Shown here: one piece after another, positions 30,963 through 35,447 of the stretch
Layout: each line of letters begins with the position of its first letter
Position numbering within the stretch: position 1 is the stretch's first letter
From: a virus
DNA: 37,324 nt
Virus record (IMG/VR): IMGVR_UViG_3300020424_000009
Span: 1 to 37,324 of that record
Reading direction: 5' to 3' (one strand)
The notes under the pieces: generated by a model
What the model saw: the letters and a program-made list of their open reading frames with translations, nothing else
The model's database searches: none
What the model was told of the DNA's origin: nothing
Made by a program: the position numbers and the translations under genes

Positions 30963-32276
30963 ATGGTTAAATTACGAGATTATCAAAAAGTGGCAAGCAG
31001 AAAATTGACCAGGCTTTGTCAGATCAAAAAATGTGCATATTTGAGTGGCGAATGTAGAACAGGCAAAACAATGGTGGCACTGTCTGTTGTTAAGAATATG
31101 GCACTTGAAAAAGTGTTGGTAATAACCAAGAAAAAGGCAATACCAAGTATTGAGAGTGATATAAGAAAAATGAATCTTGAGAAGGTAGTATCTGTCACTA
31201 ACTTTGAAATGTTAAAAAGGTTCAGAGGATCAAGCTGGAATATGATCATCGTTGATGAGGCACATAGTGTCGGTGCATTTCCAAAACCATCGCAGAGATA
31301 TTTAAATATCTTGAAACTTAGATACAACATTATTATTCTGATGAGTGGAACACCAAGCCCTGAGAGTTTCAGCCAGCTTTATCATCAATGGTCTTTGACA
31401 CCTTTTCTGTGGAGTCATTATCAGAACTTTTACAGATGGGCGAGTGATTATGTGGATGTAAAGGAAAAAAGAGTTGGCACTGGTATTGTCATAAAAGATT
31501 ATTCAGATGCCAAACAAAAAAGGATATTGAAGGACATTGAACCTTATACGGTACAGATGACACAAAAGGAGGCAGGCTTTACTCAGGAAGTTGAGGAGGA
31601 AGTTCATATGGTGAAGATGTCCAGGAGAACATACAGATTGGCCTTAAGGATAATCAAAGATGGTGTCATTGGAAGCCCTGGAGGAAGATCTGTTGTTGCA
31701 GATACTGGCGCAAAGGTAATGAGTAAATTGAGGCAGATTTATAATGGCCATGTGATAACGGAAAGACATGGAGCAATAGTTTTTGACAAAAGTAAGGCTG
31801 ACTATATAAAAAACAACTTCAGTGGAAGGATTGCCATTTTATATTGCTTTATTGCTGAAGGTAAAATGCTGAGAGAATATTTTGGAGACAGAGCAACCGA
31901 TGATCCAGATATATTCAATGCTGTAAGCGATTCTGTTTTTATAGGTCAGGTCAAGAGTTGCAGAGAAGGAGTTAATCTGAGTAGTGCCGATCACTTGATT
32001 TTTTTGGGGATAGATTATTCTGCACTTAGTTATTTACAGGGCAGAGAAAGAGCAAGTTTTCTTGGTAGGGATAGAAAAAACAAAATACATTATATTTTTG
32101 CAGAGAAGGGAATCGAGCCAAAAGTATATGATGTTGTTAAATTAAAGGAAAGTTATACTATTAACCATTATAGGAATGACCGAAGCTCAATATCAGAAGA
32201 AGCTGATCGACAGGCACGAAAAAGAAGGATGGACAGTTATCAAGTTAATTATGTGCAACAAAGCTGGTTTACCTGA
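30963..32276 (+). CDS. Superfamily II DNA helicase (437 aa)
   Basis: SNF2/DEAD-like two-domain helicase. R-D-Y-Q at 5-8 (Q-motif-like), GECRTGKT at 29-36 (Walker A), D98-E-A-H (motif II), S128-G-T-P (motif III), and in the second domain the S-C-R-E-G-V-N-L motif V and Q-G-R-E-R-A-S-F-L-G-R (motif VI with two Arg). No nuclease fused. It probably unwinds or remodels DNA during phage replication or recombination. Its end overlaps the VRR-NUC gene by 101 bases. No Shine-Dalgarno is visible before the ATG; the leader may be very short. Confidence 0.9.
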   Translation: MVKLRDYQKVASRKLTRLCQIKKCAYLSGECRTGKTMVALSVVKNMALEKVLVITKKKAIPSIESDIRKMNLEKVVSVTNFEMLKRFRGSSWNMIIVDEAHSVGAFPKPSQRYLNILKLRYNIIILMSGTPSPESFSQLYHQWSLTPFLWSHYQNFYRWASDYVDVKEKRVGTGIVIKDYSDAKQKRILKDIEPYTVQMTQKEAGFTQEVEEEVHMVKMSRRTYRLALRIIKDGVIGSPGGRSVVADTGAKVMSKLRQIYNGHVITERHGAIVFDKSKADYIKNNFSGRIAILYCFIAEGKMLREYFGDRATDDPDIFNAVSDSVFIGQVKSCREGVNLSSADHLIFLGIDYSALSYLQGRERASFLGRDRKNKIHYIFAEKGIEPKVYDVVKLKESYTINHYRNDRSSISEEADRQARKRRMDSYQVNYVQQSWFT

Positions 32277-32415
32277 TCTGATATGTATGAAACCAGATGA
32301 GGTCAAGTTCATTGAGGTCAAGGGGCCAAAGGGAAGGTTAAGTGAAATCCAGAAATATAGGATTGAAGAACTTAAAGAAGCTGGTTTTCCTGTAGAAGTC
32401 ATGCGACCTTGTTGA
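32176..32415 (+). CDS. VRR-NUC domain nuclease (79 aa)
   Basis: A complete minimal VRR-NUC (PD-(D/E)xK) nuclease: E3 and Q5 near the start, then G-L-P-D-L and I-E-V-K-G-P-K-G-R-L-S-E-I-Q (E-V-K catalytic core and the Q of motif IV). These small enzymes act on branched or flap DNA and are commonly linked to SF2 helicases in phages, as here. The start lies 101 bases inside the helicase gene, in another frame. Confidence 0.9.
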   Translation: MTEAQYQKKLIDRHEKEGWTVIKLIMCNKAGLPDLICMKPDEVKFIEVKGPKGRLSEIQKYRIEELKEAGFPVEVMRPC

Positions 32416-33013: not shown

Positions 33014-33394
33014 ATGACACCAACTTTTGAAGTTTTTCAAATTGAACTTACAAGCAATGAAAGAGACATTCATGCCTTGTATAAAAATGATAGGAAGAGG
33101 GAAAACCAAGAATTTGCTACTGAGGCATTAATCAAAGCCATTAATGAAGAAGTTGATGGCAAAAAACTTGTTAAATCAAAACTATGGAAGGCAAAAGACC
33201 ATGATGCCTTGTTAGATAAGATTATGAAAAAAACTAATTGTAATATTGATGAAATAAATTTTTGGGAATTTAGGGAGGATAATACATATAATGAACTTTT
33301 AAAAGACCCATTCTATGAGTTTCACGAAAAAAGAATTAGAGAAGATATAGAAAGAGAGGGTGATCTTGACAAACTATATAAAGGTCTTGAATGA
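33014..33394 (+). CDS. Charged hypothetical protein (126 aa)
   Basis: Charged helical protein: a start like T-F-E-V-F-Q-I-E-L, then basic R-K-R-E-N-Q, and an acidic end (R-E-D-I-E-R-E-G-D-L-D-K-L). GGAGG lies upstream in the tail of the previous gene. No known domain. It overlaps the methyltransferase start by four bases, so its translation is coupled to it; this neighbour relation suggests a possible modifier or partner of the methyltransferase, without further evidence. Confidence 0.7.
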   Translation: MTPTFEVFQIELTSNERDIHALYKNDRKRENQEFATEALIKAINEEVDGKKLVKSKLWKAKDHDALLDKIMKKTNCNIDEINFWEFREDNTYNELLKDPFYEFHEKRIREDIEREGDLDKLYKGLE

Positions 33395-34329
33395 AAAAAC
33401 TTAAATTATTAGATACTTTCAGTGGTATAGGAGGATTCTCATATGCTGCTGAAAAACTTGTTGGCGGTTTTGAAACTACACAATTTATTGAAATTGATCC
33501 ATACTGTCAGAAAGTATTAAAAAAACATTGGCCTAACGTACCTATTCACGATGACATCAAAACATTCACAGCAGAGCCTTTTCAATACGATGTCGTATGT
33601 GGAGGCTTTCCATGTCAATCAATTAGCAAAGCATCAGGCAAAGGAGAAGGCATCACGGAGACTTCAAAATCTGGTATGTGGTTTCAACTCATTAGAACCA
33701 TACGCATGGTACGACCAAAGTACTTCATCTTGGAAAACGTATCAGCGATCCTTACTAACGGAATGGACATCGTTCTCAGGGACATTTACGAGACAGGGTT
33801 ATATGAATGCGAATGGTGCTGTATACCAAGTTCGGCTGTTGGAGCTTGCCACCAAAGAGATCGCTGGTGGCTCCTGGGACATCCTTCCAACTCCGAGAGC
33901 ATCGGATGTAGAGGGGGGAGTGGTGAAGGATGTTCAGTACCAGAACGGAAACTTCTTCAGAGAGAACAAAAAAGGAGAGAAATGGGGAGTAAAACTGAGA
34001 GATGCGGTATCGATTCTTCCAACACCAAGAGCAGCGATTGGAATGGGGATGAAACTCAGCAGGGAGATGGCAAACTACGAACACAAGAAATATCTAGAGA
34101 CAGAAATTGCAGCCAAAATTCACAAATATGGAGATGTACAGAACACCGACTCAACTCAAACTGGAAACACTATGTATCTCAACCCACAATTTGTAGAGGA
34201 GATGATGGGCTACGAAATCGGGTGGACAGACTTAAAGCATTAGGAAATTCTGTAGTTCCTCAGGTAGCTGCTATACCACTGCAAAGAGTGAAAGATATTC
34301 ATGAACAGTTGACAAGTGTTGACCGTTAG
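33391..34329 (+). CDS. DNA cytosine-5 methyltransferase (312 aa)
   Basis: Methylates cytosine in DNA, probably to protect phage DNA from restriction. Motif I DTFSGIGGF at 8-16 (SAM binding), motif IV G-G-F-P-C-Q-S with catalytic C75, motif VI E115-N-V, motif VIII H-Q-R-D-R-W-W at 154-160, and motif X A-L-G-N-S-V-V-P-Q at 283-291. The region from about 165 to 270, where the target recognition domain and motif IX should be, is Ser/Arg/Gln/Asn-rich and poor in hydrophobics, unlike a normal globular domain. This is the part that shares its DNA with a second gene in the +1 frame. No cognate restriction endonuclease is encoded nearby. Confidence 0.92.
   Translation: MKKLKLLDTFSGIGGFSYAAEKLVGGFETTQFIEIDPYCQKVLKKHWPNVPIHDDIKTFTAEPFQYDVVCGGFPCQSISKASGKGEGITETSKSGMWFQLIRTIRMVRPKYFILENVSAILTNGMDIVLRDIYETGLYECEWCCIPSSAVGACHQRDRWWLLGHPSNSESIGCRGGSGEGCSVPERKLLQREQKRREMGSKTERCGIDSSNTKSSDWNGDETQQGDGKLRTQEISRDRNCSQNSQIWRCTEHRLNSNWKHYVSQPTICRGDDGLRNRVDRLKALGNSVVPQVAAIPLQRVKDIHEQLTSVDR
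33551..34243 (+). CDS. Nested overlapping gene inside methyltransferase, +1 frame (230 aa)
   Basis: Open frame of 230 codons lying wholly within the methyltransferase gene. Its translation has the marks of a real conserved protein: residues 50-69 P-Y-A-W-Y-D-Q-S-T-S-S-W-K-T-Y-Q-R-S-L, 75-89 F-S-G-T-F-T-R-Q-G-Y-M-N-A-N-G, L-P-T-P-R-A at 112-117 and again at 156-161, L-N-P-Q-F-V-E-E-M-M-G at 210-220, and G-W-T-D-L at 224-228. I recognise these blocks from phage proteins filed as hypothetical or as methyltransferase-related. The last block resembles C5-methyltransferase motif IX. No Shine-Dalgarno precedes ATG 33551, so expression might depend on coupling, a weak start or frameshifting. Confidence 0.75.
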   Translation: MTSKHSQQSLFNTMSYVEAFHVNQLAKHQAKEKASRRLQNLVCGFNSLEPYAWYDQSTSSWKTYQRSLLTEWTSFSGTFTRQGYMNANGAVYQVRLLELATKEIAGGSWDILPTPRASDVEGGVVKDVQYQNGNFFRENKKGEKWGVKLRDAVSILPTPRAAIGMGMKLSREMANYEHKKYLETEIAAKIHKYGDVQNTDSTQTGNTMYLNPQFVEEMMGYEIGWTDLKH

Positions 34330-34361: not shown

Positions 34362-34496
34362 ATGAAACATTTATTTCTCTATCTCTGCATTTTTGGCATT
34401 GGATATATCTCGCTTACGGATTCATTGACACGTTCTACCGAAATCCATTGCCTTAATAATATCCAGGCTGCGTGTGAGGAGCTTGCTAGACGATGA
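34362..34496 (+). CDS. Small membrane or signal-anchored protein (44 aa)
   Basis: Starts M-K-H-L-F-L-Y-L-C-I-F-G-I-G-Y-I-S-L, a short hydrophobic segment that could be a signal anchor, then a polar helix with two Cys (H-C-L-N-N-I-Q-A-A-C-E-E-L-A-R-R). Its stop overlaps the next ATG (ATGA). I recall similar small secreted peptides in cyanophages. The 32 bases upstream are without features. Confidence 0.55.
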   Translation: MKHLFLYLCIFGIGYISLTDSLTRSTEIHCLNNIQAACEELARR

Positions 34497-34822
34497 AATT
34501 AAATTTAGATTTACCAAAAGATAAGTGGGAGTTCATCAAAAGAAAACTTGAACAATTTAAAAAAGACAGTGAAACTGCTACTTTATTTTGTAACGCGATT
34601 GAATCTTTATCATTTGAAGAATCTTGGTCACAAAAAATCTTTCAATGTTTGACTTCAAATGGTAAAAATCCATTTAAGTTTCCAACAACAACTGAGTTGG
34701 AAGATTGTACTTATGGTTCAGCCATTGTAAAACAATGTGAATTATCAGGTACAAAATGGAAGTCACTTGAAAAAATTTATTATCAATTTCTTCTTGATAA
34801 TTACAGTATGGAGAAAAAATAA
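34493..34822 (+). CDS. Hypothetical protein, paralog of 35106-35447 (109 aa)
   Basis: Begins M-K-L-N-L-D-L-P-K-D-K-W and contains S-E-T-A-T-L-F-C-N-A-I-E-S, P-F-K-F-P-T-T and Y-Y-Q-F-L-L-D-N. The whole chain aligns with the protein encoded at 35106 (conserved start, E-T-x-x-x-F-C-x-A-x-E-S, F-P-T and Y-Y-x-F-x-x-D-N). No known family. It is helical, soluble, with no signal. It sits in the early operon before the recombination genes. Confidence 0.75.
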   Translation: MKLNLDLPKDKWEFIKRKLEQFKKDSETATLFCNAIESLSFEESWSQKIFQCLTSNGKNPFKFPTTTELEDCTYGSAIVKQCELSGTKWKSLEKIYYQFLLDNYSMEKK

Positions 34823-35109
34823 TGATGAGTGAATATGATCTTGGTTTACGCTTTCATAAATCACCGAGGAAGAAGCGACCAACCCCTGAACGCTCCGACC
34901 TCGGCAACCCAATTTTAACCATGACCGATAAAGAAATCTTCAATACATTTGCATCTGTAATTGATTCTCCAGACGCATCACCTTTTCTCAAGAGACTTGC
35001 ACAGGCTGGTCTTGTTGCAATGCCCCAGGACAAGGCACTTATCTTGAAAACATGGCCTCGGATAATGATGCAATACGGCCCTCACACTAAGAGGTACTCA
35101 GACTCATGA
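34822..35109 (+). CDS. Hypothetical basic protein (95 aa)
   Basis: Basic N-terminus (K-S-P-R-K-K-R-P-T-P-E-R-S), followed by an amphipathic helical part (T-D-K-E-I-F-N-T-F-A-S-V-I, F-L-K-R-L-A-Q-A-G-L) and a basic end. It separates the two paralogs and overlaps both neighbours by one to four bases. Function unknown; a DNA-binding role would fit the charge pattern. Confidence 0.7.
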   Translation: MMSEYDLGLRFHKSPRKKRPTPERSDLGNPILTMTDKEIFNTFASVIDSPDASPFLKRLAQAGLVAMPQDKALILKTWPRIMMQYGPHTKRYSDS

Positions 35110-35447
35110 AACTTAATTTAGATTTACCAAAACATAAATGGCAGTGTATTTCTCGACATTTGAGAGATTATAGAAAAGAAGATGAAACAGTGAACACTTT
35201 TTGTTGTGCTGTTGAATCTATTGAATTTGGTACTGACTTTCCATCAAAGATGTATCATTTTTTGTCATCACACTCTGGATTAACTCCTTTAGTTTTTCCA
35301 ACTGTTCAAACTATTGCGAAATATGATGGAGGCCCAGGGCTTCTTAAAAATATGTATCAAATATATGAACATACAAGTCAGGCAAGAACCGATTACTACA
35401 AATTTATTCAAGATAATTTCAAAATAGTTCAACAGGATAAATCATGA
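35106..35447 (+). CDS. Hypothetical protein, paralog of 34493-34822 (113 aa)
   Basis: Shares M-K-L-N-L-D-L-P-K-x-K-W and later blocks with the other copy; the first 36 bases are nearly the same, while the rest has diverged widely in sequence with the same length and pattern. It has C-C-A-V-E-S in place of C-N-A-I-E-S. Presumably duplicated long ago with the start kept by selection. It overlaps the exonuclease gene by four bases. Confidence 0.75.
   Translation: MKLNLDLPKHKWQCISRHLRDYRKEDETVNTFCCAVESIEFGTDFPSKMYHFLSSHSGLTPLVFPTVQTIAKYDGGPGLLKNMYQIYEHTSQARTDYYKFIQDNFKIVQQDKS

Follow-up and report, generated by a model that had tools for sequence, protein, structure and literature searches.

How can a C5 cytosine methyltransferase be complete when the reading frame that encodes its catalytic part has no motif IX and no evident target recognition domain (TRD)? 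A gene of this kind lies in the window, the whole stretch of 37,324 nucleotides analysed here, which is an entire IMG/VR virus record (IMGVR_UViG_3300020424_000009). Its outer open reading frame, hereafter alpha (33391..34329; all features of this gene are on the + strand), is defined by the ORF and its HMM matches and encodes a C5 cytosine methyltransferase of 312 aa with motifs I-VIII and X. It matches PF00145 over residues 5-220 only (E 9e-35) and phrog_363 over residues 1-308 (E 1e-65). The catalytic part with motifs I-VIII, delimited by HMM match (33397..33879), contains FSGIGG, PCQ, ENV and QRDR, starting at 33418, 33610, 33733 and 33853, which we take to be motifs I, IV, VI and VIII, respectively. 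Motif X, RLKALGNSVVPQ (outer residues 280-291, 34228-34263), was assigned from the outer-frame reading and from a phrog_1008 match at profile positions 293-316. Motifs I, IV (PCQ), VI (ENV), VIII and X are all present in proper order, the order of motifs I-VIII and X in M.HhaI and M.HaeIII, but in those enzymes a single frame encodes a single chain. Between motifs VIII and X of alpha, the outer-frame reading of 33887..34177 is a weakly conserved linker.

The missing parts are read in a second, inner frame, in agreement with the sequence-only reading, which had noted that the outer protein lacks both. The inner ORF, hereafter beta (33551..34243, 34243 being the end of its stop codon), was identified by ORF reading and by phrog_1008; it lies in the +1 frame relative to alpha and encodes 230 aa with TRD-like modules and motif IX. 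The candidate start is an ATG (33551..33553) within the HDDI codons of the outer frame. A +1 ATG is found in 62 of 64 related IHDDI-like motifs, versus 44.3 expected, and the first-start rule applied to 164 relatives gives 141 ATG, 18 TTG and 5 GTG codons. No Shine-Dalgarno-like stretch occurs in the 25 nt upstream of the inner ATG of the window, which counts against a reading as two polypeptides. Alignment defines a conserved N-terminal block of the inner protein, EPYAWYDQSTSSWKTYQRSL...SGTFTRQG (33689..33835), lying over the later catalytic motifs. It is followed by the TRD-like region (33887..34177) with two PTP modules (33887 and 34019), recognized by alignment and by a flip in codon-position rates described below. 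Motif IX, LNPQFVEEMMGYEIGWTDLK (34178..34237), was assigned with profiles and through a homologous block that aligns with motif IX of M.HhaI; this block and the outer R-L-K-A-L-G-N-S lie where the sequence-only reading had placed them. A motif IX and a TRD between motifs VIII and X are thus obtained only when the inner and outer chains are counted together. Among relatives, the length of the inner protein (173-423 aa) and its number of PTP modules differ widely.

The inner N-terminal block also has weak matches of its own in five other genomes (G109, G073, G107, G013 and G078), most of them with internal stops; the match in G013 sits over an ordinary methyltransferase. Because other genomes match weakly with stops inside, similarity to this block alone did not serve as evidence. 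A possible origin of the block is that conserved catalytic codons came to be read in +1.

The neighbours of the gene in the window are phage recombination and replication genes: a helicase (30963), a relative of exonuclease VIII (35444) and a relative of recombinases or repair proteins (36181). A relative of endonucleases or Holliday-junction nucleases (32176-32415; phrog_93, phrog_5702), presumably VRR-NUC-like, begins about 100 nt before the helicase ORF (30963-32276) ends and is read in a different frame. Two further small ORFs (34493-34822 and 35106-35447) resemble each other, both starting MKLNLDLPK.KW, with an unrelated ORF between them (34822-35109). They look like a tandem duplication of a phage gene of no assigned role, and the first has no PHROG match.

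Profile searches join the two frames. The PHROG family phrog_1008, annotated 'DNA methyltransferase', matches the inner protein at E 9e-23 (profile positions 33-281 of 329), yet the profile continues into motif X, which the window encodes in the other frame. Run over the window DNA, it aligns with the inner frame at 14-281 and then with motif X in the outer frame at 293-316. A single phage methyltransferase profile is thus divided, in consecutive parts, between two frames; its match to the outer protein in the protein scan is weak (E 0.052). Pfam and NCBIfam, HNH models included, matched none of 115 inner-family members at E 0.01. At E 1, the inner protein of the window retrieved only Imm52 (0.16) in Pfam and nothing in NCBIfam. 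Compared with the PDB by sequence, the best E was 0.1 for the single sequence, and the profile gave nothing up to E 10. Predicted alone, the inner protein yields a low-confidence model (mean pLDDT 64.7, pTM 0.29), which counts against a two-polypeptide reading; a fold search of this model against the PDB returned no match (best E 1.2), a result that so uncertain a model leaves compatible with a relation. The poor solo prediction would fit a part that folds only against alpha.

Is the inner block a genuine motif IX? In relatives whose alpha chain contains the homologous block, a profile of these chains aligns it with residues 270-308 of M.HhaI (RKLHP...VMGYPDSY plus the GN of motif X). By itself this alignment earns only 0.8 bits, in a chain whose catalytic part scores 111.5, and this counts against the two-polypeptide reading. 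The same profile stretch aligns with a plant DNA methyltransferase chain (4onj) at E 0.00028. One such alpha chain, from locus L370, is predicted with confidence over most of residues 1-160 (less at 71-90) and over 311-390; motifs IX and X reach a pLDDT of about 94-97, whereas the TRD modules stay below 50, which again counts against the two-polypeptide reading. The model (residues 1-392) superimposes on M.HhaI with Z 23.5 over 233 residues at an rmsd of 3.2 (Foldseek 4e-13), and on M.HaeIII with Z 20.9. In the outer-frame relatives, the block homologous to the inner motif IX is thus predicted to be part of the C5-methyltransferase domain, which bears out at the level of models the earlier description of the inner block as motif IX-like.

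If both frames are translated, stop codons should be rare in the inner one. We compared +1 stops with the numbers expected from synonymous codon shuffling that keeps the outer protein fixed, leaving out identical sequences and cut catalytic matches. In a set of 156 genes, found mostly through the inner protein and hence favouring open inner frames, there were no +1 stops in the catalytic part beyond codon 100 (390 expected) and none over the linker (285 expected). Over codons 55-100, 14 were seen against 226 expected. Outside the inner ORF the counts exceeded expectation, with 415 versus 320 over codons 1-50 and 163 versus 113 after motif IX, and the +2 frame of these genes had no comparable depletion. 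Loci chosen by the outer protein alone behaved alike after catalytic codon 100 (1 stop versus 132.6 expected in 71 genes, 0 versus 162.6 in 74 genes) and over codons 60-100 (1 versus 88.1 and 17 versus 53.7, respectively). Ordinary methyltransferases had no such depletion (22 versus 24.5 and 10 versus 10.2 expected), a control limited to the 10 genes with a motif-IX pattern in the ORF, including one that is free of +1 stops beyond codon 100. In the nearest relatives, the inner frame is therefore maintained as an open frame from roughly outer codon 50-60 onwards, with a later beginning in some lineages.

Substitution rates tell which frame selection acts on. For outer codon positions 1/2/3, a comparison of 31 disjoint pairs of near relatives gave rates of.076/.031/.236 upstream of the inner ORF,.088/.056/.193 in the catalytic overlap,.251/.112/.091 in TRD-IX and.124/.058/.380 downstream of the inner stop. 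Outer position 1 is the wobble position of the inner frame, so it is the inner protein that is constrained over TRD-IX. There, changes silent in the inner but not in the outer frame occur at.334, and the reverse at.085. In fine bins, the flip to the inner frame coincides with the point where the catalytic part ends, and the return to the outer pattern comes no more than about 15 nt from the inner stop. The outer third-position rate is.21-.42 in the 120 nt preceding the final 180 nt of the catalytic part and drops to.07-.16 in those 180 nt, the pattern that constraint on both frames would produce. Within the catalytic overlap, changes synonymous in the outer frame have a rate of.245 if the inner residue is altered and.426 if it is kept; on this measure the constraint on the N-terminal part of the inner protein is moderate, a point against the two-polypeptide reading. 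For the window compared with four relatives (L008, L013, L011 and L009), the rates were.463/.241/.287 over the TRD,.301/.221/.177 from motif IX to the inner stop and.139/.066/.382 after it, a trend in the same direction as in the pairs. As judged from these comparisons, purifying selection acts in both frames across the family; both are coding.

How widespread is the nested arrangement? Searches with the inner protein and its alignment supplied 28 viral loci, the best 80 of 361 viral matches and the best 80 of 118 bacterial ones; a search with the outer alignment, independent of the inner protein, supplied the best 80 of 583 relatives. Loci were scored with profiles for the catalytic part, motif IX and motif X, and all fractions given here apply to nearest relatives only. 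Among those found through the inner protein, 104 of 108 viral loci (95 distinct sequences) and 76 of 80 bacterial loci (best 80 of 118) have motif IX in the +1 ORF and motif X in the catalytic one, the exceptions being L035, L044, L046, L078, L132, L153, L161 and L195. Loci found through the outer protein have the same arrangement in 70 of 73 cases (among the best 80 of 583). They add 40 distinct sequences to the set, 38 of them with motif IX in +1 and motif X in the outer frame. In all, the arrangement occurs in at least 261 distinct sequences from phages and bacteria. A tblastn search with one bacterial inner protein hit 332 phage records, 224 of them from mycobacteriophages; the frames were read in a few of these only. 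Some deposited annotations already list two overlapping or nested methyltransferase genes, as in phages Peaches (gp77/gp76) and Bloom (56/57). Escherichia phage ESSI2 carries an enterobacterial member (L435, 1005-2015), with motif IX in +1 and motif X in the outer frame; over 36-41% of its length, this gene shares 80-82% identity with genes annotated as methyltransferases in 2 of 5426 E. coli genomes.

The division between the frames is not the same everywhere. We distinguish state A, with motif IX inner and motif X outer as in the window, state B, with both inner, and state C, with both outer. A scan of 166 actinophage-type loci (159 distinct), nearest relatives drawn from the best 80 of 87 and the best 80 of 585 matches and read in frames 0 and +1 up to the first stop, found both motifs in 132: 50 in state A, 45 in B and 37 in C, the other 34 lacking one motif by pattern. 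The state that would break the order (IX outer, X inner) occurred in none of the 132, and no locus among the 166 carried a motif in both frames. A looser scan of three frames found both motifs in +2 at L378 and a +2 match to the motif-X pattern at L271 and L295.

Rates by codon position follow the motifs. Motif IX has.271/.051/.079 in state A (21 pairs),.298/.123/.103 in B (18 pairs) and.115/.115/.418 in C (10 pairs); for motif X the values are.077/.036/.445,.360/.140/.077 and.102/.042/.381, respectively. In every state, the wobble position is thus that of the frame carrying the motif. No position stands out as the wobble position in the TRD/linker stretch of state C (.306/.229/.299), a pattern that would fit a hand-over inside that stretch. 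Three loci, L355, L370 and L371, switch within the array of PTP modules, the first modules being inner and the later ones outer together with motifs IX and X; in L371 (2001-3308), three inner-frame and three outer-frame modules are arrayed in one gene. L370 (state C) and L372 (state B) have in common a segment made of an LPTP module, motif IX and motif X, borne on alpha in L370 and on beta in L372, and their alignment has an offset of 0 mod 3 in the catalytic part, changing to 1 mod 3 downstream. At least five changes among A, B and C are needed on a FastTree tree built from 103 catalytic parts (72 A, 20 C, 11 B; identical rows and cut catalytic matches left out), a topology with 42 of 106 forks weak and a long-branch warning.

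The point of hand-over therefore depends on the lineage, and the best explanation of these comparisons is that it has shifted repeatedly over evolutionary time, probably as a rule through one indel within the overlap. The frame swap of motif IX suggested by the sequence-only reading holds in a wider sense, motif IX being read in +1 where the state is A or B but in the outer frame where it is C. The single-frame relatives to which that reading had looked were found in part: L355, L370 and L371 carry motifs I-VIII, later TRD modules, IX and X in one frame, and among those read in three frames none has the whole set of parts in one.

What, then, do the two frames produce? Along the DNA, the parts follow one another as they would in a single chain (I-VIII, TRD, IX, X), and programmed ribosomal frameshifting could in principle produce such a chain: ribosomes would abandon the outer frame once past motif VIII, translate TRD-IX in +1 and re-enter the outer frame at the shared L-K, yielding a single polypeptide. 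The authors of a frameshift predictor (PMC10274946) name methyltransferases as one kind of predicted phage gene 'known to contain a frameshift', and slippery-like heptamers do exist in the window, GGGGGGA in the inner frame (33913) and AAAAAAA in the outer one (33519), but both are away from the hand-over point. We nevertheless consider this mechanism unlikely. State A would need two frameshifts. The sequence-only reading advised looking for a slippery sequence near 34235-34243; the final 75 nt of the inner ORF in the window contain no canonical -1 heptamer (X XXY YYZ), and 26 of 184 state-A loci have one there. The distance from the inner stop to the GN of motif X is variable, with listed values from -52 to +101 nt. 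Nor does the proposed joining of T-D-L-K to A-L-G-N make a canonical IX-X junction, since it leaves 7 residues from the W of GWT to the G of GN, against hand counts of 16 in L370, where both motifs are on one chain, and 14 from the corresponding position in M.HhaI. Finally, the inner frame is open for about 100 codons upstream, across the later catalytic motifs, and constrained there; a frameshift downstream of motif VIII would have no use for this.

Two other explanations are harder still to sustain. The inner protein might be an independent overprinted gene, such as a regulator, an anti-restriction factor or a hidden mobile element. Out-of-frame HNH genes within a phage methylase have indeed been published (ShiLan domain, PMC11855218), but the Pfam and NCBIfam searches found no HNH endonuclease in the inner protein nor, as noted above, any match among the 115 inner-family members, and homologous inner segments lie on the alpha chain elsewhere, in order with motifs IX and X (L370 versus L372; state C). 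We regard this explanation as very improbable. Sequencing frameshifts or a dying gene could also mimic a split methyltransferase, and some loci do look frameshifted or odd (L006, L035, L044 and L227). However, the same +1 arrangement recurs in at least 261 distinct sequences, isolated phages such as Peaches and Bloom have two deposited genes, and purifying selection acts in both frames; artefact or decay can hardly be credited.

The sequence comparisons instead make it highly probable that the locus encodes one sequence-specific C5 cytosine methyltransferase made as two polypeptides from overlapping frames, with a sliding hand-over. A split methyltransferase whose inner product supplies recognition was among the options raised by the sequence-only reading, and it is the one that best explains the complementary motifs and the frame-specific selection. 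On this two-polypeptide model, alpha would bind AdoMet and perform catalysis with motifs I-VIII and X. Beta would have its own start near outer codon 54 and supply the target recognition region and motif IX. The two chains would assemble, beta giving most of the small domain that reads DNA. We infer independent initiation of beta, assembly with alpha, and methylation by the complex; a role such as escape from host restriction may be suggested. Because the alpha reading of TRD-IX is weakly constrained, a frame change there would hand downstream parts from one chain to the other with none lost, an indel within the overlap passing them from beta to alpha or back.

The small subunit of M.EcoHK31I is encoded inside the gene for the large one, in another frame, and M.EaeI is alike. 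Among described enzymes, M.EcoHK31I comes closest to the window, whose architecture is one of a known kind. According to PMC3404938, the large subunit of M.EcoHK31I has motifs I-VIII and X, and motif IX is on the small polypeptide; the enzyme is termed naturally split in PMC3439449. M.EcoHK31I (YGGCCR) thus has the same layout as the window, with I-VIII and X on alpha and IX on beta, a likeness that concerns the motif layout as described there. However, its TRD is predicted on the large subunit in PMC3404938, whereas the TRD-like modules of the window are on the inner chain. M.AquI, as presented in that source, is a C5 methyltransferase of two mutually completing subunits, as we propose here, but it is cut in the variable region with motifs IX and X both on the small subunit, while motif X of the window is on alpha; the state B relatives L002, L003 and L437, with IX and X together, resemble the M.AquI split. 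The ShiLan type (PMC11855218) also has a second frame that is open through part of a phage methylase gene, but that frame is an inserted homing endonuclease and not, as here, part of the methyltransferase. Our literature search, thin on subscription journals and made on the portions of text it returned, met no passage describing an inner/outer methyltransferase family or a sliding hand-over. As far as these searches go, what is new lies in the breadth of the family, the frame-specific selection and the sliding of the hand-over point.

More generally, the family may represent a kind of relay gene, in which one enzyme is encoded across two frames and the hand-over slides as frame changes pass downstream parts on intact. 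Such a gene would be old and widespread in phages and bacteria, would be buffered against frameshift mutations, and would let DNA-reading modules expand and recombine; we lean slightly towards this broader view. The sliding hand-over offers a testable case of overlapping-gene evolution, in which loss of a frame need not mean loss of function, and the ESSI2 member would be a handy laboratory system. Neither Pfam nor NCBIfam has a model for beta, so the specificity part of such enzymes can escape notice and leave methyltransferases in genomes half-annotated. In practice, both frames should be paired when methylation specificity is sought, and the beta proteins are natural candidates for swappable DNA-recognition subunits.
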